Below, piece by piece: positions 1 through 21,486 of a DNA stretch of 26,208 nt (within the stretch, counting starts at the first letter, position 1; each line of letters starts with the position of its first letter). Below the pieces are notes generated by a model, which saw only the letters and a list, made by a program, of their open reading frames with translations, searched no databases and was not told where the DNA came from. The translations under genes and the position numbers were made by a program. Source of the stretch: a virus; the IMG/VR virus record IMGVR_UViG_3300018428_000153, positions 1 to 26,208 of that record; one strand, 5' to 3'.

Positions 1-5
1 GGCAT

Positions 6-52
6 ATGATAGATACATATGATAGCTATCTATGATAGCTAGCCGATGATAG
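6..52. repeat. four ATGATAG iterons
   Basis: ATGATAG occurs at 6-12, 19-25, 32-38 and 46-52, with starts 13, 13 and 14 bases apart. The near-constant spacing looks like an iteron array or a regulator binding array. It starts at the window edge and may extend further left. The same core in the opposite orientation (CTATCA) occurs in pairs upstream of two later promoters. Confidence 0.7.
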
Positions 53-53
53 A

Positions 54-75
54 TTTTGTTCTCCTTTTGTTCTCC
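54..75. repeat. tandem 11-bp repeat
   Basis: TTTTGTTCTCC is repeated exactly at 54-64 and 65-75, immediately before the first copy of the 15-bp palindrome. One copy per helical turn would place both on the same DNA face. Function unknown; it is part of the leftmost control region. Confidence 0.75.
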
Positions 76-76
76 T

Positions 77-91
77 TGTCTCATTGAGACA
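77..91. repeat. 15-bp palindrome, copy 1
   Basis: TGTCTCATTGAGACA, seven-base arms around one central base. It lies between the 11-bp tandem repeats and the DnaA-box duplication, upstream of the first promoter. It is the only copy upstream of a promoter rather than downstream of one. Confidence 0.95.
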
Positions 92-99
92 TTCAAAAG

Positions 100-141
100 T
101 TATCCACAACTTTTTGTATTTTATCCACAACTTTTTGTATT
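100..141. promoter_or_regulatory. tandem 21-bp repeat with two DnaA boxes
   Basis: Positions 100-120 and 121-141 are identical 21-base units, each beginning with TTATCCACA, the consensus high-affinity DnaA box of E. coli (100-108 and 121-129). A 21-bp period is two helical turns, so both boxes face the same side. The -35 element of the first promoter begins 6 bases further on. The array could be a host DnaA-dependent origin or a DnaA-responsive control of early transcription. The sequence match is certain; binding is inferred. Confidence 0.8.
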
Positions 142-147
142 ATGGGT

Positions 148-175
148 TTGACATTCTAAGCAGAATATATATAAT
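148..175 (+). promoter_or_regulatory. sigma70-type promoter P1
   Basis: TTGACA (148-153), 16-base spacer, TATAAT (170-175): perfect -35 and -10 hexamers. It precedes the first gene (start 238), with a palindrome copy at 204-218 in the transcribed leader. As in T7, host RNA polymerase would make early transcripts from here. Confidence 0.85.
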
Positions 176-203
176 TATAATTGTAGAAGTAAATAATATA
201 AAC

Positions 204-218
204 TGTCTCATTGAGACA
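204..218. repeat. 15-bp palindrome, copy 2
   Basis: TGTCTCATTGAGACA in the leader downstream of P1, ending 19 bases before the ATG at 238 and just before the ribosome binding site AAAGGA. Confidence 0.95.
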
Positions 219-237
219 ATAACTGAAAGGAAAAATT

Positions 238-774
238 ATGACTACATTAAATAAAACAACTACTTTAATTCTTGAGATTGCAAAATATAAAGCAATTGGA
301 AGCCAATCAAAAGATAATGCTTCAACTAAATCTAATGAATTATTTGAAGCTTTAAAAGTAGAATCTCAAAATAATAAGCTTCACAATTTATCTGGAGCAG
401 AAATCGTTAATCAAGCTTTTGAATTAGCTTTTGAAAATGACTCAGAAAACGGATTTTTCGAAGATGGAAAAACGCCAGTTTGGTTGCGTACTATGAGAAG
501 TGCCATAGCTTACTGGGAATCTGAAAACAAAGAACCATTAAGAGAAATGAAATGCTCATTTACTGAGTTGAGAAAAGCTTACGATAATAAAAACAAAGAT
601 GATAACATTGAGCAACTTAAAAAAGTTTTTTCAATGTATATCAAAGACATCAAAAAGCTTTCTGATAAAGACAGAAAAACGGCAGTAAAAAATACAACTG
701 CTCAAATGGTGGCAATGCAAAAACAAATTGCAACATTGTTGCCAACTGAAGAAAAGCAGAAAAAAACTGCTTAA
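238..774 (+). CDS. hypothetical early protein, 178 aa
   Basis: I do not recognise this protein. It is the first gene after the strong promoter P1, with AAAGGA seven bases before its ATG, so it is probably among the earliest and most abundant products. The sequence is hydrophilic and helix-prone, with no signal peptide, membrane segment or cysteine cluster. The second half (residues 100-178) is rich in Lys, Asp and Gln, possibly a coiled coil, and the C-terminus is basic. It is flanked by palindrome copies on both sides (204-218 and 777-791) and followed by a terminator, so it forms a one-gene transcription unit. A host-takeover or DNA-binding role is possible, but nothing in the sequence proves it. 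Confidence 0.85.
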   Translation: MTTLNKTTTLILEIAKYKAIGSQSKDNASTKSNELFEALKVESQNNKLHNLSGAEIVNQAFELAFENDSENGFFEDGKTPVWLRTMRSAIAYWESENKEPLREMKCSFTELRKAYDNKNKDDNIEQLKKVFSMYIKDIKKLSDKDRKTAVKNTTAQMVAMQKQIATLLPTEEKQKKTA

Positions 775-776
775 TC

Positions 777-791
777 TGTCTCATTGAGACA
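777..791. repeat. 15-bp palindrome, copy 3
   Basis: TGTCTCATTGAGACA, two bases after the stop codon of the first gene and directly before the terminator hairpin. Confidence 0.95.
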
Positions 792-796
792 CGAAG

Positions 797-832
797 AAAA
801 GGCTAGGGAAATTTTCTCTAGCCTTTTTTTTT
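797..832 (+). terminator. intrinsic terminator after gene 1
   Basis: GGCTAG (801-806) pairs with CTAGCC (818-823), extended by A797-800 with the T run at 824-832. A stem followed by nine T residues is a classic Rho-independent terminator. Confidence 0.88.
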
Positions 833-845
833 GTCTAAAAAAAAT

Positions 846-864
846 CTATCACTTCGTTCTATCA
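846..864. repeat. paired CTATCA elements upstream of P2
   Basis: CTATCA at 846-851 and 859-864, starts 13 bases apart, the reverse complement of the TGATAG core of the array at 6-52. They lie about 30 bases upstream of the -35 box of P2. The surrounding bases resemble those upstream of P3 (AATCTATCACTTC in both), so they are likely a shared regulator site. Confidence 0.55.
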
Positions 865-892
865 TAATTCCATTCCTTGTGTTTTTGGTGGG

Positions 893-920
893 TTGACTTT
901 CTCTCAGTCTTTGCTATACT
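893..920 (+). promoter_or_regulatory. sigma70-type promoter P2
   Basis: TTGACT (893-898), 16-base spacer, TATACT (915-920). An inverted repeat, CTATAC with GTATAG (914-930), overlaps the -10 and start region. It drives the genes from 992. Spacer length and the GGGTTGACT context match P3. Confidence 0.8.
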
Positions 921-956
921 ATATGTATAGTGGGTATAGTACCTAAAAATAATAAC

Positions 957-971
957 TGTCTCATTGAGACA
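957..971. repeat. 15-bp palindrome, copy 4
   Basis: TGTCTCATTGAGACA in the leader of P2, ending 20 bases before the ATG at 992. The following bases (CTAACTAAAGG) are the same as after copy 6. Confidence 0.95.
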
Positions 972-991
972 CTAACTAAAGGGAGTAAAAA

Positions 992-1309
992 ATGGGAACT
1001 GTAATAAAATCAACTGCTAGTAAAAACCTTGGACTGAAAAGAAGTTGGGGTGGTGAAACATTTGGTGGTCAAACCATAAGTATTGTTAATCGTAAAACCA
1101 AGTTCAATAAAAAATTGAAGTCTGGTAAATGGAAACATCCTTTTGAATTCATAACAATTGATGATTCTATAAGATTAAATAAGCACCAAACAAAACTGCT
1201 TATCAAAATACTTCGCACTAAACTTGTAAGAAAAAAGTTAGCGAATGATTTAGATAAATGGGTTAAAGGTAAAGAAGAAGCAGACCACTCAGTAGATTGG
1301 TTAGGATAA
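992..1309 (+). CDS. hypothetical basic early protein, 105 aa
   Basis: Not recognised. A strong ribosome binding site (AAAGGGAG) precedes the ATG. The protein is strongly basic in residues 1-85 (many Lys and Arg) with a short acidic tail ending near DWLG. There are no cysteines, no membrane segments and no obvious enzyme motif. The basic, Gly-containing N-terminal half could bind nucleic acid, but this is only a charge argument. It is the first gene of the P2 transcript, followed by palindrome copy 5 and a small membrane protein gene. Confidence 0.8.
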   Translation: MGTVIKSTASKNLGLKRSWGGETFGGQTISIVNRKTKFNKKLKSGKWKHPFEFITIDDSIRLNKHQTKLLIKILRTKLVRKKLANDLDKWVKGKEEADHSVDWLG

Positions 1310-1316
1310 TATTAAC

Positions 1317-1331
1317 TGTCTCAATGAGACA
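1317..1331. repeat. 15-bp palindrome, copy 5
   Basis: TGTCTCAATGAGACA (central A) between two genes of the P2 unit. It abuts the AGGAG ribosome binding site of the gene at 1343, so a bound protein, or a hairpin in the RNA, could affect translation initiation as well as elongation. Confidence 0.95.
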
Positions 1332-1342
1332 AGGAGAAAAAA

Positions 1343-1612
1343 ATGACTAAATACGAAAGACAAGATTTAATATTTTGGAGTTTTATATTTTCAGCAATTA
1401 GTGGCTTAATAATTATGCCGTTATGGACTGCATTATATACTAATACATTATTTCCATATGACGGAACACAAGCAACTGAAGAAAGATTTTTTGGTTCGTT
1501 TATACTCATATGTGTATTGACTGCAACATTTATTTGTAGTACTGTTGTAGCAGTAGTTCATATGATTATTGCAATGTACGAACAACACAAGAATTCTAGC
1601 TGTGATGAATAG
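1343..1612 (+). CDS. small two-helix membrane protein
   Basis: 89 residues with two predicted membrane segments, about residues 8-30 and 50-75, joined by a short loop containing acidic residues. The tail (EQHKNSSCDE) is hydrophilic. The AGGAGAAAAAA ribosome binding site supports this ATG. Expected location is the inner membrane. Family not recognised; roles such as superinfection exclusion are typical for small early phage membrane proteins, but that is only a guess. It is followed by a strong terminator, so it ends the P2 unit. Confidence 0.8.
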   Translation: MTKYERQDLIFWSFIFSAISGLIIMPLWTALYTNTLFPYDGTQATEERFFGSFILICVLTATFICSTVVAVVHMIIAMYEQHKNSSCDE

Positions 1613-1640
1613 CTAGGGTATTTCCTCCCTTAAACTAAAG

Positions 1641-1673
1641 CCCTCAAGCAGAAATGCTTGGGGGTTTTTTTTT
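1641..1673 (+). terminator. intrinsic terminator with GAAA loop
   Basis: Ten-base-pair stem (1641-1650 with 1655-1664, one G-T pair) capped by a GAAA tetraloop and followed by nine T residues (1665-1673). It ends the P2 transcription unit. Confidence 0.93.
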
Positions 1674-1687
1674 GCCTTGTGCAAAAT

Positions 1688-1711
1688 CTATCACTTCAAT
1701 CACATCTATCA
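1688..1711. repeat. paired CTATCA elements upstream of P3
   Basis: CTATCA at 1688-1693 and 1706-1711, preceded by the same AAAATCTATCACTTC string found upstream of P2. Spacing is 18 bases here rather than 13. Probably the same regulatory element as at 846-864. Confidence 0.5.
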
Positions 1712-1743
1712 TTCCTTAAATTCCTTACCTTGTTCTAGGGGGG

Positions 1744-1771
1744 TTGACTTATCCCTAAACTATGGTATCCT
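1744..1771 (+). promoter_or_regulatory. sigma70-type promoter P3
   Basis: TTGACT (1744-1749) in a GGGGGGTTGACTT context, 16-base spacer, TATCCT (1766-1771) as a weaker -10. A perfect 14-bp palindrome TATAGTATACTATA lies at 1773-1786, about where transcription would start. It serves the genes from 1883. Confidence 0.7.
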
Positions 1772-1800
1772 ATATAGTATACTATAGTATTACTTTAGAA

Positions 1801-1830
1801 CTATGTACTACTATGTACTACTATGTATAT
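1801..1830. repeat. 10-bp tandem repeat in P3 leader
   Basis: CTATGTACTA at 1801-1810 and 1811-1820, with a partial third copy CTATGTATAT at 1821-1830. The one-helical-turn period between P3 and palindrome copy 6 suggests either slippage in A+T-rich DNA or a binding array. Confidence 0.8.
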
Positions 1831-1847
1831 ATATTATATTAATACTA

Positions 1848-1862
1848 TGTCTCATTGAGACA
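1848..1862. repeat. 15-bp palindrome, copy 6
   Basis: TGTCTCATTGAGACA, ending 20 bases before the ATG at 1883 in the P3 leader, followed by the same CTAACTAAAGG as copy 4. Confidence 0.95.
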
Positions 1863-1882
1863 CTAACTAAAGGAGAAGAAGT

Positions 1883-2116
1883 ATGAGAATACCAGACAAA
1901 CTACCTAATACTAAAACTATGAAACAAAAAGAAGAAGAACTAACTAAGGACTGTGTTCTTTGTGGTCTTAAAATTCCACCTGAGTTTGACCCAAATACTG
2001 GAGAGCCTTTTTGGTTTGGTGGACATAATCCTAGACCACTAGCTAACAATGGCAGATGTTGTGATGTCTGTAATCATACCAAAGTACTACCTGCTAGAGT
2101 ATTGGAGATGATGTAA
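1883..2116 (+). CDS. small zinc-binding protein
   Basis: 77 residues. Likely metal ligands are C24 and C27 (CVLC), H48 in a GGHNP motif, and C59, C60 and C63 (RCCDVC). The arrangement C-x2-C, G-H-N-P, C-C-x2-C followed by N-H/N-x-K-V-x-P-A-R is common in small phage proteins of unknown role and resembles a degenerate HNH or zinc-ribbon fold. I do not see a clear HNH catalytic set, so nuclease activity is not claimed. AAGGAG lies seven bases before the ATG. The stop codon overlaps the next start (TAATG), indicating translational coupling with the Gp88-like gene. Confidence 0.85.
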   Translation: MRIPDKLPNTKTMKQKEEELTKDCVLCGLKIPPEFDPNTGEPFWFGGHNPRPLANNGRCCDVCNHTKVLPARVLEMM

Positions 2117-2820
2117 TGACTGTTAATTATACTAGAGTAATGGAATGCGAGAAGCTACTTACTAGCACTAGTAAAATGCCTTGCGATTCCATAAGTATTG
2201 ATGCCAAGTTATGTCGTACTGGCTCAAAACTAGCAAAGTCTGAATGGACTCCTTGTTATGATTGTTATGCACTAGCAGGTAATTATTTATTTCCTAGTGT
2301 CAAAAACAAACAACAACGAGTCCTAGACTTTATGAATTCCGATGACTTTGTTGAAGTTATGGTCTGTCTCATTGAGACACGAACCTATTTCCGATGGTTT
2401 GACTCTGGAGATATTCAGAGTCAGAAAATGGCAAATGACATTCTTGACATATGCGAGAGAACTCCACATTGTCAGCATTGGCTACCAAGTAAAGAATACA
2501 AGGACTGGAGACAAGTCCTCAAAAAACGAAAGCTACCAAACAACCTTTGTTTGAGATTGTCTAGCCCACTTGCTAATCTACCACCACAACAAGATTTTAC
2601 ACACACAAGCACTACCTACACAGATGAAAAGTTTGTTTATGGGTTTATGTGTCCTGCTCATCTTCACAAAGAGAAGTATGGAGTGTATAGTTGTCGTAAC
2701 TGTCGTGCTTGTTGGGATTCAAATATTCCTAACATCTCATATATTCATCGTAACAAGAAAAAGAAAAGGAGTGAACCAAATGCAAAAACTAAATGTAGCA
2801 TTGTTGCAATCAATAATTGA
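2116..2820 (+). CDS. Gp88-like cysteine-rich phage protein
   Basis: 234 residues with twelve cysteines, including CYDC near residue 54 and CRNCRAC near 194-199. The central RWFDSGDIQS, followed about 20 residues on by a TPHCQHWLPSKEY stretch, resembles the phage Gp88 family (mycobacteriophage D29 gp88), whose biochemical role is unknown. The cysteine clusters suggest metal binding, and an iron-sulfur cluster is conceivable. Palindrome copy 7 lies inside the gene and is read as C-L-I-E-T (residues 84-88). The C-terminus is Lys/Arg-rich and overlaps the next gene by 41 bases. Family assignment is from memory of the motif and moderately sure. Confidence 0.75.
   Translation: MTVNYTRVMECEKLLTSTSKMPCDSISIDAKLCRTGSKLAKSEWTPCYDCYALAGNYLFPSVKNKQQRVLDFMNSDDFVEVMVCLIETRTYFRWFDSGDIQSQKMANDILDICERTPHCQHWLPSKEYKDWRQVLKKRKLPNNLCLRLSSPLANLPPQQDFTHTSTTYTDEKFVYGFMCPAHLHKEKYGVYSCRNCRACWDSNIPNISYIHRNKKKKRSEPNAKTKCSIVAINN
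2365..2379. repeat. 15-bp palindrome, copy 7
   Basis: TGTCTCATTGAGACA inside the Gp88-like gene, read in frame as C-L-I-E-T. First of the eight copies inside coding sequence. Confidence 0.95.
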
Positions 2821-3067
2821 AGAAATCAATATTAACATTGAGTATCCATATTGGACTATGTCCGATGGAACTGAAGACCTTTGCCAAGGCAGACTTGAGT
2901 TTGCCGTTGGTCTATTTCATACATTTACTAGAGACTTGCCAAGTAATCCATATATTGATATAGTAAATGAGATTATACAAAAACTAGATGCTGAAGAACA
3001 ACCTGACGAAGATATTGACTTCGATGAATTTCTGAAGTGTCTCAATGAGACAAAGGAGGTAAATTAA
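2780..3067 (+). CDS. hypothetical acidic protein, 95 aa
   Basis: Not recognised. I chose the ATG at 2780 because AAAGGAG stands just upstream and the longer reading frame has no supported start; this gives a 41-base overlap with the previous gene. The protein is acidic, with a DEDIDFDEF stretch near residues 77-85 and the palindrome-encoded C-L-N-E-T near the C-terminus. There are no membrane segments. Its stop overlaps the start of the next gene (TAATG), and palindrome copy 8 plus AAGGAGG lie in its last codons. It may partner with a neighbour, but function is unknown. Confidence 0.8.
   Translation: MQKLNVALLQSIIEEININIEYPYWTMSDGTEDLCQGRLEFAVGLFHTFTRDLPSNPYIDIVNEIIQKLDAEEQPDEDIDFDEFLKCLNETKEVN
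3038..3052. repeat. 15-bp palindrome, copy 8
   Basis: TGTCTCAATGAGACA in the last codons of the 95-aa gene (read C-L-N-E-T), directly abutting the AAGGAGG ribosome binding site of the gene at 3067. It is both coding and placed like an intergenic copy. Confidence 0.95.
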
Positions 3068-3573
3068 TGAATCTGTTCTTTTTACACAAAGTAGCAGGTA
3101 AGTGTGCAGAAGACCTATGCGACAAGCACATACCCAAGATGGTGTTGGAGACAGCCCAAATGCTGTCCACAGCCCATCACTATCATAATTCCGTACATAA
3201 AAATTCCGTGTACAAACGAGCATACGAAAACCACCCTACAACTAGGTGGGTGAGAAAGAACTGCCGTACATATGAATTTGCATATCGTTTGTTTCTTGAT
3301 TTGTTGCACGAGTATTTTGAACGATTCCATAAAGTACACAAATGCGACACACTTAGAAAATTCCTTGCACTCAATCCTTGTCCAGACGGAGATTGGGTTG
3401 ACCCACCACAATGTATGCCAGACGAATACAAGTGCGATGATACAGTAACTGCATATCGTAACTATTACATAAATGAAAAGGCACATTTTGCAAAGTGGAC
3501 AAGGAGTAAAATCCACAAGGGCAAACCACCCAAGTGGTTCATAACTGAAGAGGAGTTAGTTTACTGGTGTTAG
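3067..3573 (+). CDS. conserved phage protein, glycosylase-like candidate
   Basis: 168 residues. The arrangement K-H-x-x-K-M-V-L-E-x-A-Q (residues 20-31), a HPTTRWVR motif (56-63), a Y-x-x-R-F-x-K-x-H-K stretch, a MPDEY motif and a final AYRNYYxxEK is a recurring pattern in proteins of many marine T4-like and T7-like phages. Such proteins are sometimes annotated as pyrimidine dimer DNA glycosylase-like. I recognise the pattern but not a proven activity, so no gene symbol is given. A strong AAGGAGG ribosome binding site and TAATG coupling support the start. It is the last gene before promoter P4. Confidence 0.75.
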   Translation: MNLFFLHKVAGKCAEDLCDKHIPKMVLETAQMLSTAHHYHNSVHKNSVYKRAYENHPTTRWVRKNCRTYEFAYRLFLDLLHEYFERFHKVHKCDTLRKFLALNPCPDGDWVDPPQCMPDEYKCDDTVTAYRNYYINEKAHFAKWTRSKIHKGKPPKWFITEEELVYWC

Positions 3574-3580
3574 GTGCTAG

Positions 3581-3608
3581 TTGACTCCCTCATTGGTTGT
3601 GGTATAAT
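3581..3608 (+). promoter_or_regulatory. sigma70-type promoter P4
   Basis: TTGACT (3581-3586), 16-base spacer, TATAAT (3603-3608), in the only clear intergenic gap between 1883 and 6572. It would drive the helix-turn-helix gene at 3650 and the small genes after it. Unlike P1-P3 it has no palindrome in the leader; the nearest copy is 3710-3724, inside the gene. Confidence 0.85.
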
Positions 3609-3649
3609 AACTATAATAGCAATTTTAACTAAATAAAAGGAGATATATT

Positions 3650-4006
3650 ATGTTGCTAGAACCTACTACAAACAATCCTAAACAGTTAGATATGTTTAAG
3701 GATTCCCCTCGTCTCAATGAGACACCAAAAAGGCTAACCATAGGTGCTGACAAGTTACCAAAGCCTCAACCTCCAAAGAGAACTGGTAAGTATATGCATT
3801 ACTCTAAGTACTCAAAGTCTGAGCAGAAGAGAATTGTAGAATACTTTCTAGTTAATCAAGACAATGGAGTTAAGGTTGTAGAGTTAGCTAAATACTACTT
3901 CATCTCACTACCTACATTTTACAATTGGTTAAAAGATTGGAGAGATGGTAGATACATTGAGGATTCTATATATAACACAACTATTGCATTTAGGAGGTCA
4001 AGATGA
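3650..4006 (+). CDS. helix-turn-helix protein, putative DNA-binding
   Basis: 118 residues. Residues about 50-105 (KSEQKRIVEYFLV, then VVELAKYYFISLPTFYNWLKDW) look like a homeodomain-like or transposase orfA-like helix-turn-helix, with the second and third helices around ELAKYYF and SLPTFYNWL. The N-terminal 45 residues are Pro/Lys-rich and probably disordered. It has its own strong promoter (P4) and an AAGGAG ribosome binding site. A one-mismatch palindrome lies in codons 21-25 (R-L-N-E-T), which would allow autoregulation if this protein binds the palindrome. That link is inferred from context. It overlaps the next gene by four bases (ATGA). Confidence 0.8.
   Translation: MLLEPTTNNPKQLDMFKDSPRLNETPKRLTIGADKLPKPQPPKRTGKYMHYSKYSKSEQKRIVEYFLVNQDNGVKVVELAKYYFISLPTFYNWLKDWRDGRYIEDSIYNTTIAFRRSR
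3710..3724. repeat. 15-bp palindrome, copy 9 (one mismatch)
   Basis: CGTCTCAATGAGACA: the first base is C instead of T, so the encoded peptide is R-L-N-E-T. It lies in the 5' part of the helix-turn-helix gene, about 100 bases downstream of the -10 of P4. It is the only imperfect copy. Confidence 0.9.
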
Positions 4007-4323
4007 ATAATGCTCAACAAAGTATGAACTTGGCAAATGCTCATAGTCTTGAATTAAGTGGAGGGTTTGTGAAGACAAATGAAATAAAAAAAGGTCATAG
4101 AGTATTACTATCCAATGGGTGGTATGCGACTATGATGGACAATAAAAAAGGACAAACTAGACTTGCAATGGTAGAGGGTATCTACAAAGAAGCAGGTAGT
4201 GTTTATTCTCACGACATCGTTGCAGTAAGAGACAAGGACAATGAAGACTTATGGCATCTTGTTCAGCATACTGCATCACAAAAGAAACTTAGAGGTTGGA
4301 TTGAAGAACAATTTAACTCATAA
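4003..4323 (+). CDS. conserved small phage protein, 106 aa
   Basis: The segment from about residue 28 (GHRVLLSNGWYATMMDNKKG, then TRLAMVEGIYKEAGSVYSHDIVAV) looks like a small beta-barrel and resembles uncharacterised proteins in marine podoviruses and T4-like cyanophages. I can name no activity. AGGAGG precedes the ATG, which overlaps the stop of the helix-turn-helix gene (ATGA), so the two are translationally coupled. The C-terminus is basic and Gln-rich and overlaps the following gene by 23 bases if that gene starts at its TTG codon. Confidence 0.75.
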   Translation: MNNAQQSMNLANAHSLELSGGFVKTNEIKKGHRVLLSNGWYATMMDNKKGQTRLAMVEGIYKEAGSVYSHDIVAVRDKDNEDLWHLVQHTASQKKLRGWIEEQFNS

Positions 4324-4516
4324 GACTGAGATTACGATTCTCAGAAATATAGTACAAGGTTTGGCAGAGGACAATGCATATTTTGTTGGTCTTCTGTCTG
4401 ACCTTGCTACTGCTGTTGAAGATGAAGTTTTATCATCTGATATGAGTGTCTCAATGAGACAGTTGCTTGACGAAGTAAAAGAAGCAACACTAGATTATAA
4501 TAAACTAATTAACTAA
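4301..4516 (+). CDS. hypothetical helical protein, 71 aa (TTG start)
   Basis: Not recognised. No ATG fits near the 5' end of this reading frame except one deep inside the previous gene (4241). The TTG at 4301 has AGAGG five bases upstream and gives a minimal overlap, so I prefer it. The protein is mostly helical and acidic with heptad-like leucines. Palindrome copy 10 lies inside and, uniquely among coding copies, is read in the other open frame (S-V-S-M-R-Q). The start is uncertain. Confidence 0.6.
   Translation: MKNNLTHKTEITILRNIVQGLAEDNAYFVGLLSDLATAVEDEVLSSDMSVSMRQLLDEVKEATLDYNKLIN
4447..4461. repeat. 15-bp palindrome, copy 10
   Basis: TGTCTCAATGAGACA inside the 71-aa gene. It is the only coding copy not read as (C/R)-L-(I/N)-E-T, which shows the DNA word, not the peptide, is what is conserved. 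Confidence 0.95.
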
Positions 4517-4530
4517 AAGGATAAGAAAAA

Positions 4531-4698
4531 ATGGATATTATTGTACCAAATAAAGAAAATAACATAGACATCAATGAATATGTTGAGTATGATGAGGGTA
4601 ATAATATGAGAGTTTACTTCAAGAGAGACCAGTTTCTTGAAGATGCTCGAGAATACCTTAAAAATGAACATCAAGACTATGAAATAGTGGAGGTGTAA
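4531..4698 (+). CDS. hypothetical acidic protein, 55 aa
   Basis: Starts with MDIIVPNKEN and ends with EIVEV. AAAGGATAAGAAAAA supplies a ribosome binding site upstream of the ATG, and the gene fills the space between its neighbours exactly (14 bases before, one base after). The protein is acidic with no cysteines or membrane segments. The last codons contain the GTGGAGGTG that serves as ribosome binding site for the next gene. Function unknown. Confidence 0.7.
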   Translation: MDIIVPNKENNIDINEYVEYDEGNNMRVYFKRDQFLEDAREYLKNEHQDYEIVEV

Positions 4699-4699
4699 T

Positions 4700-5209
4700 A
4701 TGAATACATTTGACAAAGAACTACAACTTTCAAAATTAGAAAAAGAACAACTGATACAATATTACAAAGAAAAAACATTGCCAAGTTTTAAAGTAGATAA
4801 TGAAACACCTCAATATGAAAGCGATAACTTTTGGGATGGCATTCAATTTGACAAACGAATGTTTGACCTTTGTGTTTACTGGTCAGATTATAAGATTGTT
4901 TGTGTTGTGTATGAGTGCGACCCAACTGAAGATGATAATTGGACAACTAATATGACTGCTTGTTGGTATCTTAGTGATGAGGTCAAGATGACTAAAGTAA
5001 CTAAAGAAGATATCATATGGGCAAGTGGTCATTACTTAGGTGAACATTTGCCATCAGACTATGATGAGTGGGAAGAGGAAAAGATTGACGAATTCCTTGA
5101 AGCCAATGCTTGGGAGTATTTTGAATATGCAGACCCTAAATTTATATGGGAGCAAATTGAATCCCTAGCTTGGAGTATGAGACATTATGTAGGAGGTAAA
5201 GATGACTGA
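4700..5209 (+). CDS. hypothetical acidic, Trp-rich protein, 169 aa
   Basis: Not recognised. The protein is strongly acidic, with many Asp and Glu throughout (for example DYDEWEEEKIDEF near residues 119-131), and rich in Trp and Tyr. Such a composition is seen in DNA-mimic proteins that block host DNA-binding enzymes, such as T7 Ocr, but there is no sequence match I can claim and the idea rests on charge alone. GGAGG lies seven bases before the ATG. It overlaps the next small gene by eight bases. Confidence 0.75.
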   Translation: MNTFDKELQLSKLEKEQLIQYYKEKTLPSFKVDNETPQYESDNFWDGIQFDKRMFDLCVYWSDYKIVCVVYECDPTEDDNWTTNMTACWYLSDEVKMTKVTKEDIIWASGHYLGEHLPSDYDEWEEEKIDEFLEANAWEYFEYADPKFIWEQIESLAWSMRHYVGGKDD

Positions 5210-5342
5210 AAAACAATTTAATAAATGGCTAGACGATAATGCTAGTGTGCCTTGGGAAGAAGTACAAAACTTTAGTGATGAAGCAGGTACATCAGTATGG
5301 ATTAGATTTGATTTAAAAAAAGAGGAAGATGATGAAAGTTAA
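5202..5342 (+). CDS. hypothetical acidic protein, 46 aa
   Basis: Reads MTEKQFNKWLDDN at the N-terminus and ends EEDDES. AGGAGG is five bases before the ATG, inside the end of the previous gene, and the gene overlaps the next by 14 bases. The middle (VPWEEVQNFSDEAGTSVWIRFDL) looks like a short beta-rich domain. Function unknown; the tight overlap on both sides and the good ribosome binding site support it as a real gene. Confidence 0.65.
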   Translation: MTEKQFNKWLDDNASVPWEEVQNFSDEAGTSVWIRFDLKKEEDDES

Positions 5343-5727
5343 AGTTTACTATAATTTACATAAGAATTGTTACTCTATTGTTTCTCTTGAGAAAGAGAAC
5401 TATGGTAGAGTAATTAAGCACGAGAATTCTGTGCCGTTGTTTGATGCACAGTTCAAAGTGTCAGAGAAAGGCAGACAACGAGTGTTGCGTGAGCAGAAAA
5501 AAAATGTCCACGCATATGTTGTAGGCACTTGGGTGAGTGAGTTTGAAATTCATAAAGATGAATTTTTAACTAGGTTGCCTATAAAGTTAGCTACTTATAG
5601 TCCTTATAAGTACAGTAGCTTTGTTGATGTTCACTCTAAGAAACCATTAACTAAAGCTAGTCAAGTTCTACTTTCAAAAAGACATTTTGTAGGTAGACAA
5701 ACAAGTATGATATATTATGTGGCATAA
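5329..5727 (+). CDS. hypothetical basic protein, 132 aa
   Basis: Two adjacent ATG codons (5329 and 5332) are possible; 5332 has the better spacing from AGAGGA. The protein is basic (Lys-rich in the middle and C-terminal half) and begins MKVKVYYNLHKNCYSIVSLE. Similar beginnings occur in uncharacterised phage proteins with an N-terminal beta-strand pair, but I know no function. There is no signal peptide and no cysteine cluster. It follows an acidic small gene with a 14-base overlap. Confidence 0.7.
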   Translation: MMKVKVYYNLHKNCYSIVSLEKENYGRVIKHENSVPLFDAQFKVSEKGRQRVLREQKKNVHAYVVGTWVSEFEIHKDEFLTRLPIKLATYSPYKYSSFVDVHSKKPLTKASQVLLSKRHFVGRQTSMIYYVA

Positions 5728-5735
5728 GGAGAAAA

Positions 5736-5897
5736 ATGATGACAATGAATGATACTTTTAAAAAGTTTGAAGAAACATTACTTTTAAATTGCATAGCAGA
5801 CCCTAGTTATGCTACAAAAATGTTAATGAATAAATATGGGTATACTATGGCAGACTTACAAAAAGTTAGAGAAAAAGGTAAGGCTGATGATTCGTGA
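5736..5897 (+). CDS. hypothetical protein, 53 aa
   Basis: Begins MMTMNDTFKKFEET and ends EKGKADDS. AGGAGAAAA precedes the start, eight bases after the previous stop. A single helical domain with a basic C-terminal half is likely. Its last 11 bases overlap the start of the acetyltransferase gene, suggesting coupling. Function unknown. Confidence 0.65.
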   Translation: MMTMNDTFKKFEETLLLNCIADPSYATKMLMNKYGYTMADLQKVREKGKADDS

Positions 5898-6333
5898 TGC
5901 GACAAAATGTGATATTGAGTATCTTCTTCCCTTGGCTCGTAAGATGCATTCCACAAGTATTTATAAGAATAGCCATTATTCTGATGACAATATTCGTGTT
6001 TGGGCTAAAGGTTATATTGATTCTGACCACAGCTACTTTCGTGTTTATTGCAGAGAAGAAAAGGCAGTTGCTTTCTTACTTGGATACATAACCAATTATC
6101 TATGGGGCGATGACATTTTTGCTCAAGAAGAACTTTTGTTTACTGATGGTAAAAGTCAATTAGCAGGTTTTAAACTGTTAAAAGATTTTGAAAAGTGGGC
6201 AATAAAAAATAATTGTAGAGAAGTAAACTATTCTGTAACATATGGAGGAGCAACAACTTCTCAGTATGACGATGTTATGGAGAGACTAGGTTACACAAAG
6301 CAAGGAACAATTTACAAGAAAGGATTAAAATGA
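5887..6333 (+). CDS. GNAT-family N-acetyltransferase
   Basis: 148 residues from ATG 5887 (MIRDATKCDIEYLLPLARKMHS), the usual beta1-alpha1 opening of GNAT proteins; an upstream start at 5836 would add an unlikely extension. The pattern continues with a central strand (KAVAFLLGYI, about residues 61-70), a helix (GFKLLKDFEKWAIKNN), and the closing RLGYTKQGTIYKK typical of the C-terminal part of the fold. GNAT proteins transfer an acetyl group from acetyl-CoA to amines; the target, perhaps a host protein, cannot be read from sequence. Phage GNATs near the RNA polymerase gene are common in T7-like marine phages. It overlaps the next gene by ATGA. Confidence 0.85.
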   Translation: MIRDATKCDIEYLLPLARKMHSTSIYKNSHYSDDNIRVWAKGYIDSDHSYFRVYCREEKAVAFLLGYITNYLWGDDIFAQEELLFTDGKSQLAGFKLLKDFEKWAIKNNCREVNYSVTYGGATTSQYDDVMERLGYTKQGTIYKKGLK

Positions 6334-6572
6334 TAAAAACTGCAATGGTTCTTATAATAATATTACACGGATACAAAGATGCTCCGTACACAGAAAAATT
6401 TATTGGAAAAGTACCAGACTGTCTCAATGAGACACTTGAGCCACTCACAGAAAAATTAAAAGAAAAGTATCCAGAAAAAATGTGGGGATATATGTGTATA
6501 GATGAGCCTCTGTGGGAACATAAAAAATCTTTTTATGGTCTTTCAAAGGGAGATACAGAATTAACATATTAG
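6330..6572 (+). CDS. hypothetical small protein with hydrophobic N-terminus
   Basis: 80 residues. Residues 5-13 (AMVLIIILH) form a short hydrophobic stretch after MIKT, like a truncated signal or membrane anchor. The rest is charged, and two cysteines in the soluble part (the first in the palindrome-encoded C-L-N-E-T, the second in YMCIDEP) could form a disulfide if exported. The ATG overlaps the stop of the acetyltransferase gene. Function unknown. Confidence 0.65.
   Translation: MIKTAMVLIIILHGYKDAPYTEKFIGKVPDCLNETLEPLTEKLKEKYPEKMWGYMCIDEPLWEHKKSFYGLSKGDTELTY
6420..6434. repeat. 15-bp palindrome, copy 11
   Basis: TGTCTCAATGAGACA inside the 80-aa gene, read C-L-N-E-T. Confidence 0.95.
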
Positions 6573-6778
6573 TATTAGAAATAATTTGTGCAATATTAGC
6601 AGTAATTAGTGTTTGGTTGTATGGCAATGGAAGTCGTTATGCACCACTCTTTGGATTATTCTGTCAAATGTTTTGGATAACTTGGACAATACAAGGAAAT
6701 CACTACCCAATGTTGATATTGTGCATTTTTATGGTCGGCACACACATACGCAACTACTTTGTGATGCGAAACAAGTAG
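6560..6778 (+). CDS. small membrane protein with probable ATT start
   Basis: The frame reads on to TAG at 6776-6778 and encodes a hydrophobic protein, with membrane segments about residues 4-20, 27-43 and 48-65. It resembles small PnuC-like or other helical membrane proteins of phages (V-W-L-Y-G-N near residues 17-22). No ATG, GTG or TTG with a ribosome binding site lies at the 5' end. The only well-placed codon is ATT 6560, nine bases after AAAGGGAG, overlapping the previous gene. Either a rare ATT start is used or the gene is damaged at its 5' end. The coding character is clear; the start is not. Confidence 0.55.
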   Translation: MNILVLEIICAILAVISVWLYGNGSRYAPLFGLFCQMFWITWTIQGNHYPMLILCIFMVGTHIRNYFVMRNK

Positions 6779-6788
6779 TTGTTGCAAA

Positions 6789-6810
6789 GTGATAGGAAAT
6801 GTGATAGGAA
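6789..6810. repeat. GTGATAGGAA direct repeat
   Basis: GTGATAGGAA at 6789-6798 and 6801-6810, 12 bases apart, in the 38-base gap before the zinc-ribbon and RNA polymerase genes. It contains the TGATAG core seen near promoters P1-P3. The second copy also provides AGGAA as ribosome binding site for the ATG at 6817. Confidence 0.6.
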
Positions 6811-6816
6811 TTCCGT

Positions 6817-6975
6817 ATGAAATGTTGGCATTGTAACATAGAACTAATCTGGAATAATGATTATGATATAGAGAGTGAATGTGAAGAATATTGTATGGAG
6901 ACTCATTTGAGTTGTCCTAACTGTAATTCCTTTGTTGTAGTGAGATTACCTAAAAGAGATAATGATGAAATATAA
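6817..6975 (+). CDS. small zinc-ribbon protein, 52 aa
   Basis: MKCWHCNIELIW at the N-terminus gives C3-x2-C6, and LSCPNCNSF gives C33-x2-C36: two CxxC knuckles about 27 residues apart, a zinc ribbon. Further cysteines at 22 and 26. Similar small zinc ribbons are found in marine podoviruses. The gene overlaps the start of the RNA polymerase gene by 14 bases, so translation of the two is probably coupled. A role in modulating transcription is conceivable from position only. Confidence 0.8.
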   Translation: MKCWHCNIELIWNNDYDIESECEEYCMETHLSCPNCNSFVVVRLPKRDNDEI

Positions 6976-9424: not shown

Positions 9425-9439
9425 TGTCTCAATGAGACA
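9425..9439. repeat. 15-bp palindrome, copy 12
   Basis: TGTCTCAATGAGACA immediately after the RNA polymerase stop codon (no bases between), at the junction between RNA polymerase and the replication genes. Confidence 0.95.
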
Positions 9440-11016: not shown

Positions 11017-12623
11017 CCCACAATCCTTGTCCGAATTGTCCATCGTCTGATGCGTTTGCTATTTATGACGATGGGCACGGATATTGTTTCTCGTGTGGGT
11101 ATACAGAAAAAGATTGTCTCATTGAGACAGAAAGGAGAGAAAAAGTGAATGCAGGATTAATTACAGATGGTGAACAAAAACCATTAGCTAAGAGAAGTAT
11201 TAATCAAGCTACAATCAAGAAGTGGGATTATCAAGTAGGTAACTACAATGGTAAAGCAGTACAGATTGCTAACTATAAAGATAATCAAGGAACAGTCATT
11301 GCACAAAAATTAAGATTTCCTAATAAAGATTTTTTATTTATTGGCAAGACTGAAAAAGTATCTTTGTATGGTCAATGGCTATGGAGAGATGGTGGTAAAC
11401 AAGTAACTGTGGTCGAGGGAGAGATTGATGCTCTGTCAATGAGCCAAGCCTTAAATAATAAATGGGCTGTTGTCTCTGTACCTCACGGAGCAGCAGGGGC
11501 AAAAAAAGATGTCGCTAAAGCTTTGGAGTGGTTAAGTAAGTTTGACAAAGTTGTTTTTATGTTTGACAATGATGAGGCAGGTAGAAAAGCTGCTCAAGAT
11601 TGTGCATCCATATTACCACCCAACAAAGCAAAGATTGCTAGTTTACCAATGAAAGATGCCAATGAAATGTTGGTAGCAGGAAAGGTAAATGAACTTATTG
11701 ATTGTATGTGGGATGCCAAGGACTTTAGACCAGATGGTATTGTCAATGGAGCAGATTTATGGGAGTTAGTCTCATCGACAGATGATACTGAATCTTTTGA
11801 ATATCCATTTAGTGGTTTAAATGGTAAAACACTTGGATTACGAAAAGGAGAGATTGTAACCATAACTGCAGGCTCTGGTGTAGGTAAAAGTCAACTCTGT
11901 AGAGAGATTGCCCATTATTTATTACATCAAGGGCAAACAATTGGTTATATTGCTCTTGAGGAAAGTGTAAAGAGGTCAGCCCTTGGGCTTATGTCTATTG
12001 CACTAAATAAACCACTACACCTAGGTAATGTAGATGTAACTGACAAGGAACTAAAAAAATCCTTTGAAGAAACACTAGGAACTGGTAGAGTATATCTTTA
12101 TGACCATTGGGGTTCTACTGAGTCAGATAATTTGTTGGCTAAGATTAGATACCTTGCAAATGGTTGTGGATGTTCTTTTATTGTTCTTGACCATATTAGT
12201 ATTGTTGTGTCTGGTATATCAGAGGGAGACGAAAGACGAACTATTGATAATACTATGACAAAACTAAGAGGATTAGTAGAAGAACTAAAGGTTGGCTTGA
12301 TATTAGTCTCGCATCTTAAAAGACCAGATGGTAAAGACCATACTGATGGAGCAAGAGTAAGTCTTGGTCAGTTAAGAGGTTCTAGTGGTATTGCACAACT
12401 AACAGATATTTGTATTGGTTGTGAAAGAAACTTGTCTGATAATTCTCCTACAACAACTGTAAGAGTATTGAAGAATAGGTGGACTGGAGAAACTGGAGTA
12501 GCTTGTAAATTAGCTTATGACAAACATACTGCTCGTATGAGTGAGTTGACTGTTGATGATGAAGATGATATAGATGATATTACTTTTAATGAAAAGGATG
12601 AACTAAATGAAACTAGTATTTGA
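10986..12623 (+). CDS. primase-helicase (T7 gp4-like)
   Basis: 545 residues from ATG 10986; a GTG at 10962 would add eight. ATG 10986 puts the zinc-finger cysteines at 15, 18, 34 and 37 (T7: 17, 20, 36, 39). Then come a Toprim-type primase core (VVEGEIDALS, FMFDNDEAG) and a RecA-like helicase with Walker A GSGVGKS at about 296-302 and a FIVLDH Walker B region. It makes RNA primers and unwinds DNA as a hexamer at the fork. Palindrome copy 13 lies in the linker after the zinc finger, followed by a ribosome binding site and an in-frame GTG. It overlaps the polymerase gene by 17 bases. Confidence 0.97.
   Translation: MVEHEESNFLTHNPCPNCPSSDAFAIYDDGHGYCFSCGYTEKDCLIETERREKVNAGLITDGEQKPLAKRSINQATIKKWDYQVGNYNGKAVQIANYKDNQGTVIAQKLRFPNKDFLFIGKTEKVSLYGQWLWRDGGKQVTVVEGEIDALSMSQALNNKWAVVSVPHGAAGAKKDVAKALEWLSKFDKVVFMFDNDEAGRKAAQDCASILPPNKAKIASLPMKDANEMLVAGKVNELIDCMWDAKDFRPDGIVNGADLWELVSSTDDTESFEYPFSGLNGKTLGLRKGEIVTITAGSGVGKSQLCREIAHYLLHQGQTIGYIALEESVKRSALGLMSIALNKPLHLGNVDVTDKELKKSFEETLGTGRVYLYDHWGSTESDNLLAKIRYLANGCGCSFIVLDHISIVVSGISEGDERRTIDNTMTKLRGLVEELKVGLILVSHLKRPDGKDHTDGARVSLGQLRGSSGIAQLTDICIGCERNLSDNSPTTTVRVLKNRWTGETGVACKLAYDKHTARMSELTVDDEDDIDDITFNEKDELNETSI
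11115..11129. repeat. 15-bp palindrome, copy 13
   Basis: TGTCTCATTGAGACA in the primase-helicase gene, read C-L-I-E-T, between zinc finger and primase core, 15 bases before an internal GTG preceded by AAAGGAGAG. Confidence 0.95.
11131..11147 (+). promoter_or_regulatory. internal ribosome binding site and GTG in helicase gene
   Basis: AAAGGAGAG followed by GTG at 11145-11147, in frame as codon 54 of the protein counted from ATG 10986. Starting here would produce a zinc-finger-less helicase form, as T7 does with gp4B from Met64. The position relative to the domains is the same as in T7. Confidence 0.6.
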
Positions 12624-14379
12624 TATAGAAACTGACGGACTTTTAGAGAGTGTTACTAAGATACATTGTATTGTTGCCAGAGATGTCAGCGACAATGATA
12701 AAGAGTACATTTTTAAAGAGGACACTATTGGAGATGGTATAGAATTTCTACAGAAAGCAGAAGTTCTAATTGGACATAACATTATATGTTTTGATTTACC
12801 AGTCATAAAAAAATTATATGGTGTAGAACCAAAAGCAATAGTGGTTGATACCCTTGTACTGGGTAGATTATATTTTCCAGATAGAAAAAATAGAGATTTT
12901 AAACTATTTAGAAAAGGTAATTTACCACCACAACTTATAGGCTCACATAGTCTAAAAGCTTGGGGGTATAGAATAGGTATAAGCAAAGGGAAGTTTGCAG
13001 AAGAAAGTGACTTCTCTGTTTTTTCTGAAGATATGTTACAATATTGTCAACAAGATGTTTGGCTAAATACTTGTCTGTATAAAAAATTTGAGAACATAAA
13101 ATACTCTCAAGATGCAGTTAAGTTGGAACATAGAATTCAAGAAATTTTGTTTGCACAACAAGAACACGGCTTTCCATTTAATGAAGAGGCAGCACAAAAG
13201 CTTTTTTCTAAATTAAATGACGAGAGGTGTCTCATTGAGACAGACTTGAAGAAAGACATATCTGCTTGGGTACACGAAGAAGAGTTTGTACCAAAAGTTA
13301 ATAGTAAAAAATATGGATATGAAAAAGGTGTACCTACTATAAAGAGAACTGTTACTGAGTTTAATCCAAATAGTAGAGAACATATAGCCAGAATGCTACA
13401 AGAAAAGTATGACTGGAAGCCAAAAATTTTTACAGAGACTGGATTACCTAAAGTAGATGAACGAGTTCTTAGTTCTTTGGATTATCCAGAGGCAAAAGTA
13501 CTAACTAAATATTTAACAATACAAAAAAGGCTAGGACAACTTGCAGAGGGTAAACAAGCTTGGTTGAAACTAGTAAAGAAAGGAAAGATAAATGGATATG
13601 TTAACCCAATGGGAACATACACTTCGAGATGCACACACAAGAACCCAAATATGGCTCAAATACCTAGTGTCAAAGCTGAATATGGGGTGGATTGTCGTAG
13701 TTTGTTTTATGCTAATGATGACTACAGCCTTATGGGGTGCGATGCTAGTAGTTTGGAGTTGCGTTGCTTATCCCACTATATGGCTAACTGGGATGATGGT
13801 CGATATGGTAAGCAGGTTGTTAACGATGACATCCATACAATTAACCAAAATGCAGCAGGGTTACCAACTCGTGATAATGCCAAAACTTTTATCTATGCTC
13901 TCATTTATGGGGCAGGGAACGAAAAACTTGGTAAGATTATTGGCAAAGGTAGCCAAGAGGGTAGCAGGATAAAAGCAGATTTCTTTAAAAAGATACCTGC
14001 ATTAAAAAACCTAACAGAATCTGTTCAAAAAACTGCAGAGAATGGGTATATTTTTGGTATTGATAAAAGAAGAATACCAGTTATGCACCCACACGCAGCA
14101 CTAAATACTCTTCTCCAAAGTTGTGGAGCAATTTTAACAAAACGATGGATTGTTATATTTCACGATTTGTTAAAAGAAAGAGGCTATATAGATGGTTGTT
14201 GTTATAAACAAGTAGCCTATGTACACGATGAAGTGCAAGTATTAGTTAAAAAACATAAAGGAGAGGAAATTGGTAAAATCTGTGTCGAAGCAATCAAAAA
14301 AGCAGGAGAATATTACAACCTCAGAGTCCCCCTTGACGGAGAGTTCAAAATTGGAAAGAACTGGGCTGAGACCCACTAA
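12607..14379 (+). CDS. DNA polymerase (T7 gp5-like, family A)
   Basis: 590 residues (T7 gp5 has 704). N-terminal 3'-5' exonuclease with DIETDG (D6, E8). Polymerase motif A DASSLELRCLSHYM from D379, motif B RDNAKTFIYALIYGAG from R422, motif C VHDEVQV with D541. The shorter length suggests a reduced thumb or thioredoxin-binding region, so the processivity factor may differ from T7. Palindrome copy 14 encodes residues 208-212. The start overlaps the end of the helicase gene; the 3' end overlaps the next gene by 29 bases. Confidence 0.97.
   Translation: MKLVFDIETDGLLESVTKIHCIVARDVSDNDKEYIFKEDTIGDGIEFLQKAEVLIGHNIICFDLPVIKKLYGVEPKAIVVDTLVLGRLYFPDRKNRDFKLFRKGNLPPQLIGSHSLKAWGYRIGISKGKFAEESDFSVFSEDMLQYCQQDVWLNTCLYKKFENIKYSQDAVKLEHRIQEILFAQQEHGFPFNEEAAQKLFSKLNDERCLIETDLKKDISAWVHEEEFVPKVNSKKYGYEKGVPTIKRTVTEFNPNSREHIARMLQEKYDWKPKIFTETGLPKVDERVLSSLDYPEAKVLTKYLTIQKRLGQLAEGKQAWLKLVKKGKINGYVNPMGTYTSRCTHKNPNMAQIPSVKAEYGVDCRSLFYANDDYSLMGCDASSLELRCLSHYMANWDDGRYGKQVVNDDIHTINQNAAGLPTRDNAKTFIYALIYGAGNEKLGKIIGKGSQEGSRIKADFFKKIPALKNLTESVQKTAENGYIFGIDKRRIPVMHPHAALNTLLQSCGAILTKRWIVIFHDLLKERGYIDGCCYKQVAYVHDEVQVLVKKHKGEEIGKICVEAIKKAGEYYNLRVPLDGEFKIGKNWAETH
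13228..13242. repeat. 15-bp palindrome, copy 14
   Basis: TGTCTCATTGAGACA inside the DNA polymerase gene, read C-L-I-E-T (residues 208-212), in the region between exonuclease and polymerase domains. Confidence 0.95.
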
Positions 14380-15862: not shown

Positions 15863-17739
15863 TGATGAATGTTTACCAGAAATTTATAGCAATATCTCGC
15901 TATGCTAGATTTATTGAAGAAGAACAAAGGCGAGAAACTTGGGAAGAAAGTGTTGACAGATATGTTGATTACTTTGCTAAGAAGCTACCCAAGGCAGAAA
16001 AACAACTAAGACAATATTCTGTCTTTATGAAAGACCTTGAAGTAGTACCATCAATGAGAGCCATTATGTCAGCAGGTCCTGCGTTAGATAGGGATAATAT
16101 TGCAGGTTACAACTGTTCTTATATGACTGTTGATGACCCAAAAGCATTTGACGAATGTCTGTATGTTCTTATGTGTGGTACTGGTGTTGGTTTTTCTGTT
16201 GAAAGAAAATGTGTGGAAAAGTTACCAGATATACCAGAGTGTCTCAATGAGACAGAAGAAGTCTTTGTAGTAGAAGACAGTAAATTAGGTTGGGCAAAAG
16301 GTTTGCGAAAACTAATTTCTAGATTGTATGCAGGAGAGATTCCAAAATGGGATTTGTCAAAAATAAGACCTGCAGGTGCAAGACTTAAAACATTTGGTGG
16401 TAGAGCAAGTGGTCCACAACCACTAGAAAATTTATTTAGGTTTACAGTCAACACATTTAAAAAAGCTGCAGGAAGAAAGCTAACAAGTATAGAAGCACAC
16501 GATGTTATGTGTGCAGTAGCTGCTGCAGTTGTAGTAGGTGGTGTCCGTAGGTCAGCTATGATTAGTTTGTCAGATATGGTAGATGATAGGATGCGTAACT
16601 GTAAGATGGGAGACTGGTGGACTGAGAATGTTAATAGGTCATATGCTAATAATAGTATTGCTTACAATAGAAAACCAGAAATGGGTGGATTTATAAAAGA
16701 GTGGGCTGCTCTATATAGTTCTAAATCTGGAGAACGAGGAGTGTTTAACAGACAAGCAGCTAAAGAACAATCAAAAAAAACTGGTAGGAGAAACCACGAT
16801 TACTATTTTGGAACTAACCCTTGTGGTGAAATAATTTTACGACCATCTCAATGTTGTAATCTTTCTGAAATAATTATTAAACCAAAAGATGATTTAGAAA
16901 CTCTTAAAGTAAAAGCAGAGGTTGCATCTTTTCTTGGTACAATACAATCTACTCTTACTGACATAAGATATCTTAGACCTATATGGAAAAAGAATATGGA
17001 AGAAGAAAGATTGTTAGGTGTTTCTATGACTGGTATTTTAGATAATGAGTTATTAGCTGATGTAGATAAAGTTACTAACACAGATGTATTAACTCAATTA
17101 AAACAAGTAGTTATAGACACAAATAAAAAGTGGGCAAAAATATTAGGAGTAAATCAGAGTACTGCTACAACTTGTGTTAAACCTAGTGGTACAGTATCTC
17201 AATTAGCTGATTGTGCATCTGGTATACATCCAAGATATTCTGATTATTATATTAGAAGAGTAAGAACAGATACTAAAGACCCTCTTGCAGAATGGATGAT
17301 AAAAGAGGGAGTGCCGTATGAAAAAGATTCTTACAACCCTCATAACTATGTATTTTCTTTTCCAATACAAAGTCCAACACATAGTAAAAAGAAAGAGGAA
17401 TTAAATGCTATTGACCAACTTAAACTTTGGAAAGCTTACAGAGAAAATTGGTGCGAGCATAATCCATCAATTACTGTATATGTAGGAGAAGAAGAATGGA
17501 TGGAAGTAGGTGCATATGTATATGAGCATTTTGATGACATATGTGGTGTTTCATTTTTACCAAAAGAAGATGATTCTCACTCGTATGTACAAGCACCATA
17601 TGAAAAAATAAATAACTTGCAATTTAAAAAGTTATCTGATAATATGCCTACAATTGATTTCTCAAAGTATAGAGAAGTCAAGGATATGACTACTAGTTCT
17701 CAAGAGTTAGCTTGTACTGGTAATTCGTGTGAATTATAG
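15859..17739 (+). CDS. nrdJ: class II (adenosylcobalamin-dependent) ribonucleotide reductase
   Basis: 626 residues, similar to monomeric Lactobacillus leichmannii-type reductase but shorter. C86 (GYNCSYM) and C333 (QCCNLSE) fit the redox pair, C322 and E324 in NPCGEI the radical cysteine and its partner, and C619/C624 (CTGNSC) the C-terminal shuttle cysteines. It reduces ribonucleotides to deoxyribonucleotides using B12, so the host must supply cobalamin. Common in marine podophages, absent from T7. Palindrome copy 15 encodes residues 128-132 in an apparent loop. A terminator follows, ending the replication block. Confidence 0.93.
   Translation: MMMNVYQKFIAISRYARFIEEEQRRETWEESVDRYVDYFAKKLPKAEKQLRQYSVFMKDLEVVPSMRAIMSAGPALDRDNIAGYNCSYMTVDDPKAFDECLYVLMCGTGVGFSVERKCVEKLPDIPECLNETEEVFVVEDSKLGWAKGLRKLISRLYAGEIPKWDLSKIRPAGARLKTFGGRASGPQPLENLFRFTVNTFKKAAGRKLTSIEAHDVMCAVAAAVVVGGVRRSAMISLSDMVDDRMRNCKMGDWWTENVNRSYANNSIAYNRKPEMGGFIKEWAALYSSKSGERGVFNRQAAKEQSKKTGRRNHDYYFGTNPCGEIILRPSQCCNLSEIIIKPKDDLETLKVKAEVASFLGTIQSTLTDIRYLRPIWKKNMEEERLLGVSMTGILDNELLADVDKVTNTDVLTQLKQVVIDTNKKWAKILGVNQSTATTCVKPSGTVSQLADCASGIHPRYSDYYIRRVRTDTKDPLAEWMIKEGVPYEKDSYNPHNYVFSFPIQSPTHSKKKEELNAIDQLKLWKAYRENWCEHNPSITVYVGEEEWMEVGAYVYEHFDDICGVSFLPKEDDSHSYVQAPYEKINNLQFKKLSDNMPTIDFSKYREVKDMTTSSQELACTGNSCEL
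16240..16254. repeat. 15-bp palindrome, copy 15
   Basis: TGTCTCAATGAGACA in the ribonucleotide reductase gene, read C-L-N-E-T (residues 128-132), between an ERKCVEKLPDIPE stretch and an acidic EEVFVVED stretch. Confidence 0.95.
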
Positions 17740-21471: not shown

Positions 21472-21486
21472 TGTCTCATTGAGACA
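21472..21486. repeat. 15-bp palindrome, copy 16
   Basis: TGTCTCATTGAGACA one base after the scaffold stop codon, the last copy in the window and the only one in the structural gene region, at the left edge of the capsid leader. Confidence 0.95.

Follow-up and report, generated by a model that had tools for sequence, protein, structure and literature searches.

Palindromes dispersed across a T7-like phage genome as putative operators of a first-gene regulator

Genes and control elements at the left end of the window

The DNA analysed here, called the window, is the whole stretch of 26,208 nucleotides of IMG/VR virus record IMGVR_UViG_3300018428_000153. It carries genes in the T7 order, namely those for a T7-type RNA polymerase (RNAP), SSB, endonuclease, amidase, primase-helicase, DNA polymerase, exonuclease, ribonucleotide reductase (RNR), portal, scaffold, capsid and tail protein; a single-subunit RNAP combined with T7-order replication and capsid genes places it among the Autographivirus (T7-like) phages. 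In the relative G002, the terminase gene is directly left of the region of the first early gene (gene 1), and the window therefore starts near the left end of a T7-like genome. An integrase and a MarR-like gene precede the RNAP gene in G003, G007-G012 and L021. Neither was found in the stretch before RNAP in the window, G001 or G002, where it is complete. Judging by position, we infer that G001 and G002 between them cover most of a genome. We read the lineage as T7-like and temperate in most relatives, a way of life that fits because most of them carry the integrase, with a window clade in which no integrase was found and the sites described below are retained. A protein of the Gene product 88 family (Pfam GP88), found in several relatives, is encoded at 2116-2820 with a palindrome within the gene; G002 has a different ORF at this position.

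Gene 1 (238..774, plus strand) encodes 178 aa. The repeats that a sequence-only reading had listed ahead of it were all recovered, on the plus strand: four ATGATAG repeats (6-12, 19-25, 32-38 and 46-52, spacing 13, 13 and 14), two tandem copies of TTTTGTTCTCC (54-64 and 65-75), a palindrome, TGTCTCATTGAGACA, at 77-91, and a 21-bp exact tandem duplication (100-120/121-141) with two DnaA-box-like TTATCCACA at 100-108 and 121-129. The same reading correctly described a control region ahead of an early promoter with perfect hexamers: TTGACA (148-153) and TATAAT (170-175) are separated by 16 bp on the plus strand, this promoter at 148-175 is the sole 12/12 sigma70 match in 1-7000, and gene 1 follows. 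A second copy of TGTCTCATTGAGACA, at 204-218 in the predicted 5' leader just before the gene 1 RBS, flanks the promoter on its downstream side. The palindrome had been mentioned in passing; it recurs across the whole window.

The resemblance to a replication origin that had been proposed for this region was then confronted with the relatives. The ATGATAG repeats had been called iterons, an interpretation that the data do not support: they are 7 bp long, no such array was found ahead of gene 1 in the relatives, and they are located where the left end of a T7-like genome would be. Across the whole window the motif occurs 8 times against 5.4 expected, which is no excess, and the four-copy cluster is real. 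T7 itself has 7-base repeat arrays beside its terminal repeats, and by analogy the array at 6..52 may represent the short repeats of such a T7-like end, a simpler reading than iterons.

A replication origin or a DnaA-responsive promoter, at which DnaA bound to the boxes at 100-129 would open the DNA or tune the early promoter, is improbable. The two exact boxes do stand 19-48 bp upstream of the -35 hexamer; however, they represent one box copied by a single duplication, and boxes at one mismatch are not in excess over the whole window (9 seen, 9.8 expected). The search for boxes among relatives, by which the origin idea was to stand or fall, gave a divided answer. Upstream of gene 1, the window and its closest relative, G002, have exact boxes, the single one of G002 overlapping the -10 hexamer in the opposite orientation (0.008 expected), and one-mismatch boxes are found twice in G008 (0.14 expected) and once in L054; none is present there in G011, L074, L076 or the 113 bp available for L021. 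A Rep_3 family search gave no match to this initiator in G000, G001, G002, G008 and G011, and the gene next to the ATGATAG array had no family match. Searches with AAA_31 and ParB_N also gave no match in five records, which are fragments. The DnaA boxes of the proposed origin are present, but no Rep_3, ParA or ParB was found in the records searched and the phage has its own replisome, with a T7-type polymerase, primase-helicase, SSB and exonuclease. The conserved theme of the region is the palindrome and not the DnaA box, and the boxes give an origin no support. From their sequence distribution the boxes are slightly above chance among relatives, and DnaA tuning of the early promoter is a possible, minor lead.

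Sixteen palindromes and one site word per clade

The palindrome TGTCTCAwTGAGACA (centre A or T) is present in 16 copies in the window, 15 perfect and one with an outer mismatch, where about none is expected. When up to 3 mismatches were allowed, 33 two-strand matches were obtained against 1.2 expected (0/100 shuffles). Among 2.9 million viral contigs, the exact pattern occurs in only 35 stretches, and multiple copies are confined to close relatives.

Following the two copies at the early promoter, copy 3 (777..791) starts two bases past the gene 1 stop codon, copy 4 (957..971) lies downstream of a promoter-like element (893-920), with the next start codon 21 nt away, copy 5 (1317..1331) separates a stop codon from the next RBS and copy 6 (1848..1862) precedes the ORF at 1883-2116. 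Copy 7 (2365..2379) is within the Gp88-like gene, copy 8 (3038..3052) is 15 nt before the phrog_624 gene (3067-3573), copy 9 (3710..3724; CGTCTCAATGAGACA, the one with the outer mismatch) is within a small HTH gene (3650-4006), and copies 10 (4447..4461) and 11 (6420..6434) are within the ORFs 4241-4516 and 6330-6572, respectively. Further to the right, copy 12 (9425..9439) directly follows the RNAP stop codon, copy 13 (11115..11129) is at the 5' end of the primase-helicase gene, copies 14 (13228..13242) and 15 (16240..16254) are within the DNA polymerase and RNR genes, and copy 16 (21472..21486) is between the scaffold and capsid genes. In general, the sites crowd into the early region, and late genes have few; often they stand 15-25 nt ahead of a start codon or just past a stop codon, and some are inside genes. 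Intrinsic terminators were rejected, as the palindromes carry no T-runs in the sense of transcription. A separate AT-rich element of about 45 bp (ACTATGTACTACTATGTACTA...; window 1770-1835, L012:3420-3470 and L012:4940-4990) precedes a palindrome in the window and in G002 (contig L012), and G002 also has it inverted close to the terminase end.

This distribution bears on two other readings. In one, the copies would act as RNA hairpins close to ribosome sites, as targets of an RNA-binding regulator or substrates of an RNase. This would account for the many copies some 15-25 nt ahead of start codons, and the sequence of the palindrome allows a 6-bp stem and a loop of 3-4 nt; such a role is very unlikely, however, as changes in the arms are mostly not G-U pairs, copies occur deep in genes, and the central bases vary freely but only within dyad symmetry, as for DNA sites. 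Centromere or condensation sites of a partition-like or plasmid-prophage system (ParB-parS, KorB-like) would likewise be many dyads spread over a genome, here in a clade in which no integrase was found, and scattered operators of the KorB type exist. Such sites in place of operators are hardly probable, given that the five records searched gave no ParA or ParB_N match and that copies concentrate at promoters, leaders and junctions of early genes.

To compare the relatives, each genome was scanned for repeated exact dyads, and a single dominant arm was obtained per genome. The arm is TGTCTCA in the window, G001 and L011; TGTCGCA in G002, the only genome with that word; GTTAACT in G003, G008 and G012; GTTAACC with a 2-base centre in G010, G011 and L085; CGTTACA in G004, G009 and L021-L023; TTTACC-NNN in L074 and L079; and TTTAACA in L076. 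In simple first-order shuffles, a 6-base arm never reached more than 2 copies. Across clades the sites occupy comparable locations: the gene 1 promoter, the Gp88-like gene, the phrog_624 gene, the RNAP/SSB junction, the 5' part of the DNA polymerase gene, RNR and scaffold/capsid. The dyad scan gave no comparable palindrome set in G007 or in the cultured HTVC168P, Eistla, LUZ100 and Limnohabitans phage YIMV22061; the palindrome-free G007 carries the integrase and the MarR-like gene.

G002 has centres of both 1 and 2 bases (TGTCGCA n1 or n2 TGCGACA), which is unusual for a rigid dimer. Four CGTGATCACG dyads with a spacing of 19-20 bp are present in the early region of a relative (L059:767-834), and a more distant T7-like contig has TCTGGGKATMCCCAGA three times (L083:549, 1787 and 2675), perhaps as another member with dispersed dyads. 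L085, with the GTTAACC word, is a contig of a MAG called Rhodobiaceae MED766, which hints at the host group of that clade.

A coordinated switch of sites and the search for their putative reader

The window and G002 are 99% identical in RNAP and 96% in DNA polymerase, and their site words differ (TGTCTCAATGAGACA in the window, TGTCGCAATGCGACA in G002). At orthologous sites the changes from window to G002 are symmetric and double, TCT to TCG in one arm and AGA to CGA in the other, whilst the flanks of coding sites are mostly 85-95% identical. Within the DNA polymerase, the site encodes CLIET in the window and CRIAT in G002 (L to R and E to A); the ORF at 6330-6572 correspondingly reads CLNET and CRNAT. 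In addition, L089 carries a window-type site at the place of the G002 site at 12028. As judged from these alignments, the site is kept over the protein sequence, with both halves changing in step, which indicates selection for the site. Taken together, the symmetric switch and the residue changes in DNA polymerase are strong evidence that a co-evolving, sequence-specific DNA-binding protein reads the palindromes as double-stranded DNA.

Such a reader should differ between the window and G002. This argues against several proteins: RNAP is nearly unchanged although the palindromes differ, and the phrog_624 protein and the small HTH protein (3650-4006) are too similar in the two phages to explain the switch. 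The HTH gene is moreover missing in four palindrome carriers, of which G008 and L021 are the firm cases, the G009 and G004 contigs starting inside the early region. MarR was not found in some palindrome carriers, the window clade among them, and is present in the palindrome-free G007; neither it nor the integrase, which is missing from the window clade and present in G007, tracks the palindromes in either direction. Among the other early genes, none was found only in palindrome carriers.

Gene 1 has a different profile. It lies behind a palindrome-flanked promoter wherever the region is available, and it is the most diverged protein shared by the window and G002 (29% identity over 173 aa, the others ranging from 55 to 99%); G011 and L054, with a common palindrome, have gene 1 proteins that are 96% identical. 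No gene 1 match was found in the five genomes that gave no palindrome set in the dyad scan. By position and elimination, gene 1 is the best candidate and probably encodes the reader.

The gene 1 product has no Pfam or PHROG match. Homology is firm only within the pair window-G002 and the group G008-G011-L054. Across groups the likeness is confined to a short, collinear motif (TL..YRS...E...SF..LR.AY), and hhalign gave probabilities under 8% with E values of 0.005-0.08, single profile comparisons not being significant. No relatives were retrieved by tblastn in phage and plasmid collections; against viral contigs the window protein had no match, and the only matches of the G011 protein were the protein itself and one close copy. 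In AlphaFold2 predictions from 8 sequences, the pLDDT was 50 for the window protein and 70 for that of G011, in which residues 11-140 are mostly at 75-91 with a single dip to 62. Neither Foldseek nor VIA-align returned a believable match to these models, and no DNA-binding fold was recognised. The weak similarity across groups and the absence of a recognised fold favour an alternative in which one or more other phage proteins read the sites and gene 1 is simply a fast-evolving early gene at a promoter; there are several further small unidentified early genes, and other fast-evolving genes in the AT-rich early regions could hold the reader. We regard this alternative as rather unlikely, as the HTH, MarR, phrog_624 and RNAP proteins fail on the distribution or the similarity described above.

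A putative silencing system and its relation to known systems

Our best explanation, to which we give as a whole a probability of about 0.6, is that bases 77-237 serve a T7-like phage as promoter and operators for its first early gene, and not as a replication origin. The 16 palindromes would be dyad sites of one phage regulator, most likely the gene 1 product, and this probably acts as a repressor or roadblock; by analogy the sites probably constitute a genome-wide off switch of the stoperator kind. In the proposed sequence of events, host RNA polymerase would make gene 1 first, from the strong promoter flanked by two sites. Once abundant, the gene 1 product would bind the sites at its own promoter, resulting in negative feedback, and at the leader and in-gene sites it would block initiation or roadblock elongation over the early, phage RNAP and replication genes. 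The phage would thereby stay quiet, and relatives sharing its word would be excluded. A role in lysogeny is uncertain in the window clade because no integrase was found there; this clade may use the system for exclusion or for a carrier state.

More tentatively, and with rather less than even confidence, we propose a new immunity or silencing system of marine T7-like phages, in which a hypervariable regulator with a new fold, encoded by the first gene, would be paired with 6-16 dyad sites in each genome whose words change together, and which would be kept even without integrase. If this is true, very closely related phages form distinct immunity groups. The metagenomic T7-like phages of this one lineage use at least seven site words; two of these occur in a group with shared core proteins that are mostly 90-99% identical, and selection on the sites is strong enough to change DNA polymerase residues. 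The lineage would offer a natural system to study how a repressor and its many sites change specificity together, and whether ocean T7-like phages use immunity groups. A search of the literature on pelagiphage palindromes and T7-like operator sites found nothing describing such a system.

Few phage groups are well known for scattered operator sets that co-evolve, among them the L5-type mycobacteriophages, SPbeta and P1. In phage P1, one repressor, C1, serves many scattered operators; scattered sites are common to P1 and the window, but those of P1 are asymmetric 17-bp operators and belong to a different biology.

In the temperate T7-like phage LUZ100, control is exerted by MarR and integrase (PMC10134795). 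The genome plan is related and most relatives in our set have a MarR-like gene and an integrase just before RNAP; in contrast, neither gene was found in the window clade, and no gene 1 match or comparable palindrome set is present in LUZ100. The two mapped host promoters of LUZ100, P1 and P2, have TATCCACCAGCGCATAAGATGCGCAG in common; it forms a dyad over the -10 region, and a variant follows RNAP (L086, 361-426, 562-627 and 6674-6739). This is perhaps LUZ100's own operator. In SPbeta, repeated elements (SPBRE) at several places in the genome are bound by MrpR, a master repressor of unusual fold (PMC10516654). Repeated regulatory elements and a single proposed phage regulator are shared features, but SPbeta is a Bacillus prophage and the tyrosine-recombinase fold of MrpR was not detected in gene 1.

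In Cluster A mycobacteriophages (L5/Bxb1), repressor-stoperator immunity uses clade-specific words, and the prophages are maintained either by integration or as extrachromosomal elements (PMC6550527, PMC9283540). As in Cluster A, the sites described here are genome-wide, at the early promoter and within transcription units (16 copies), and the word is private to each clade; in Cluster A the repressor diverges in step with its sites, a part for which gene 1 is a candidate here. The L5 sites are asymmetric, 13 bp long, mostly in one orientation and bound by a monomeric repressor, whereas those of the T7-like phages are dyads of 14-16 bp, in genomes with their own RNA polymerase and with a first early gene of no recognised fold as the candidate reader. 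The L5-type stoperator system is the nearest analogue, from which the sites differ in their dyad form.
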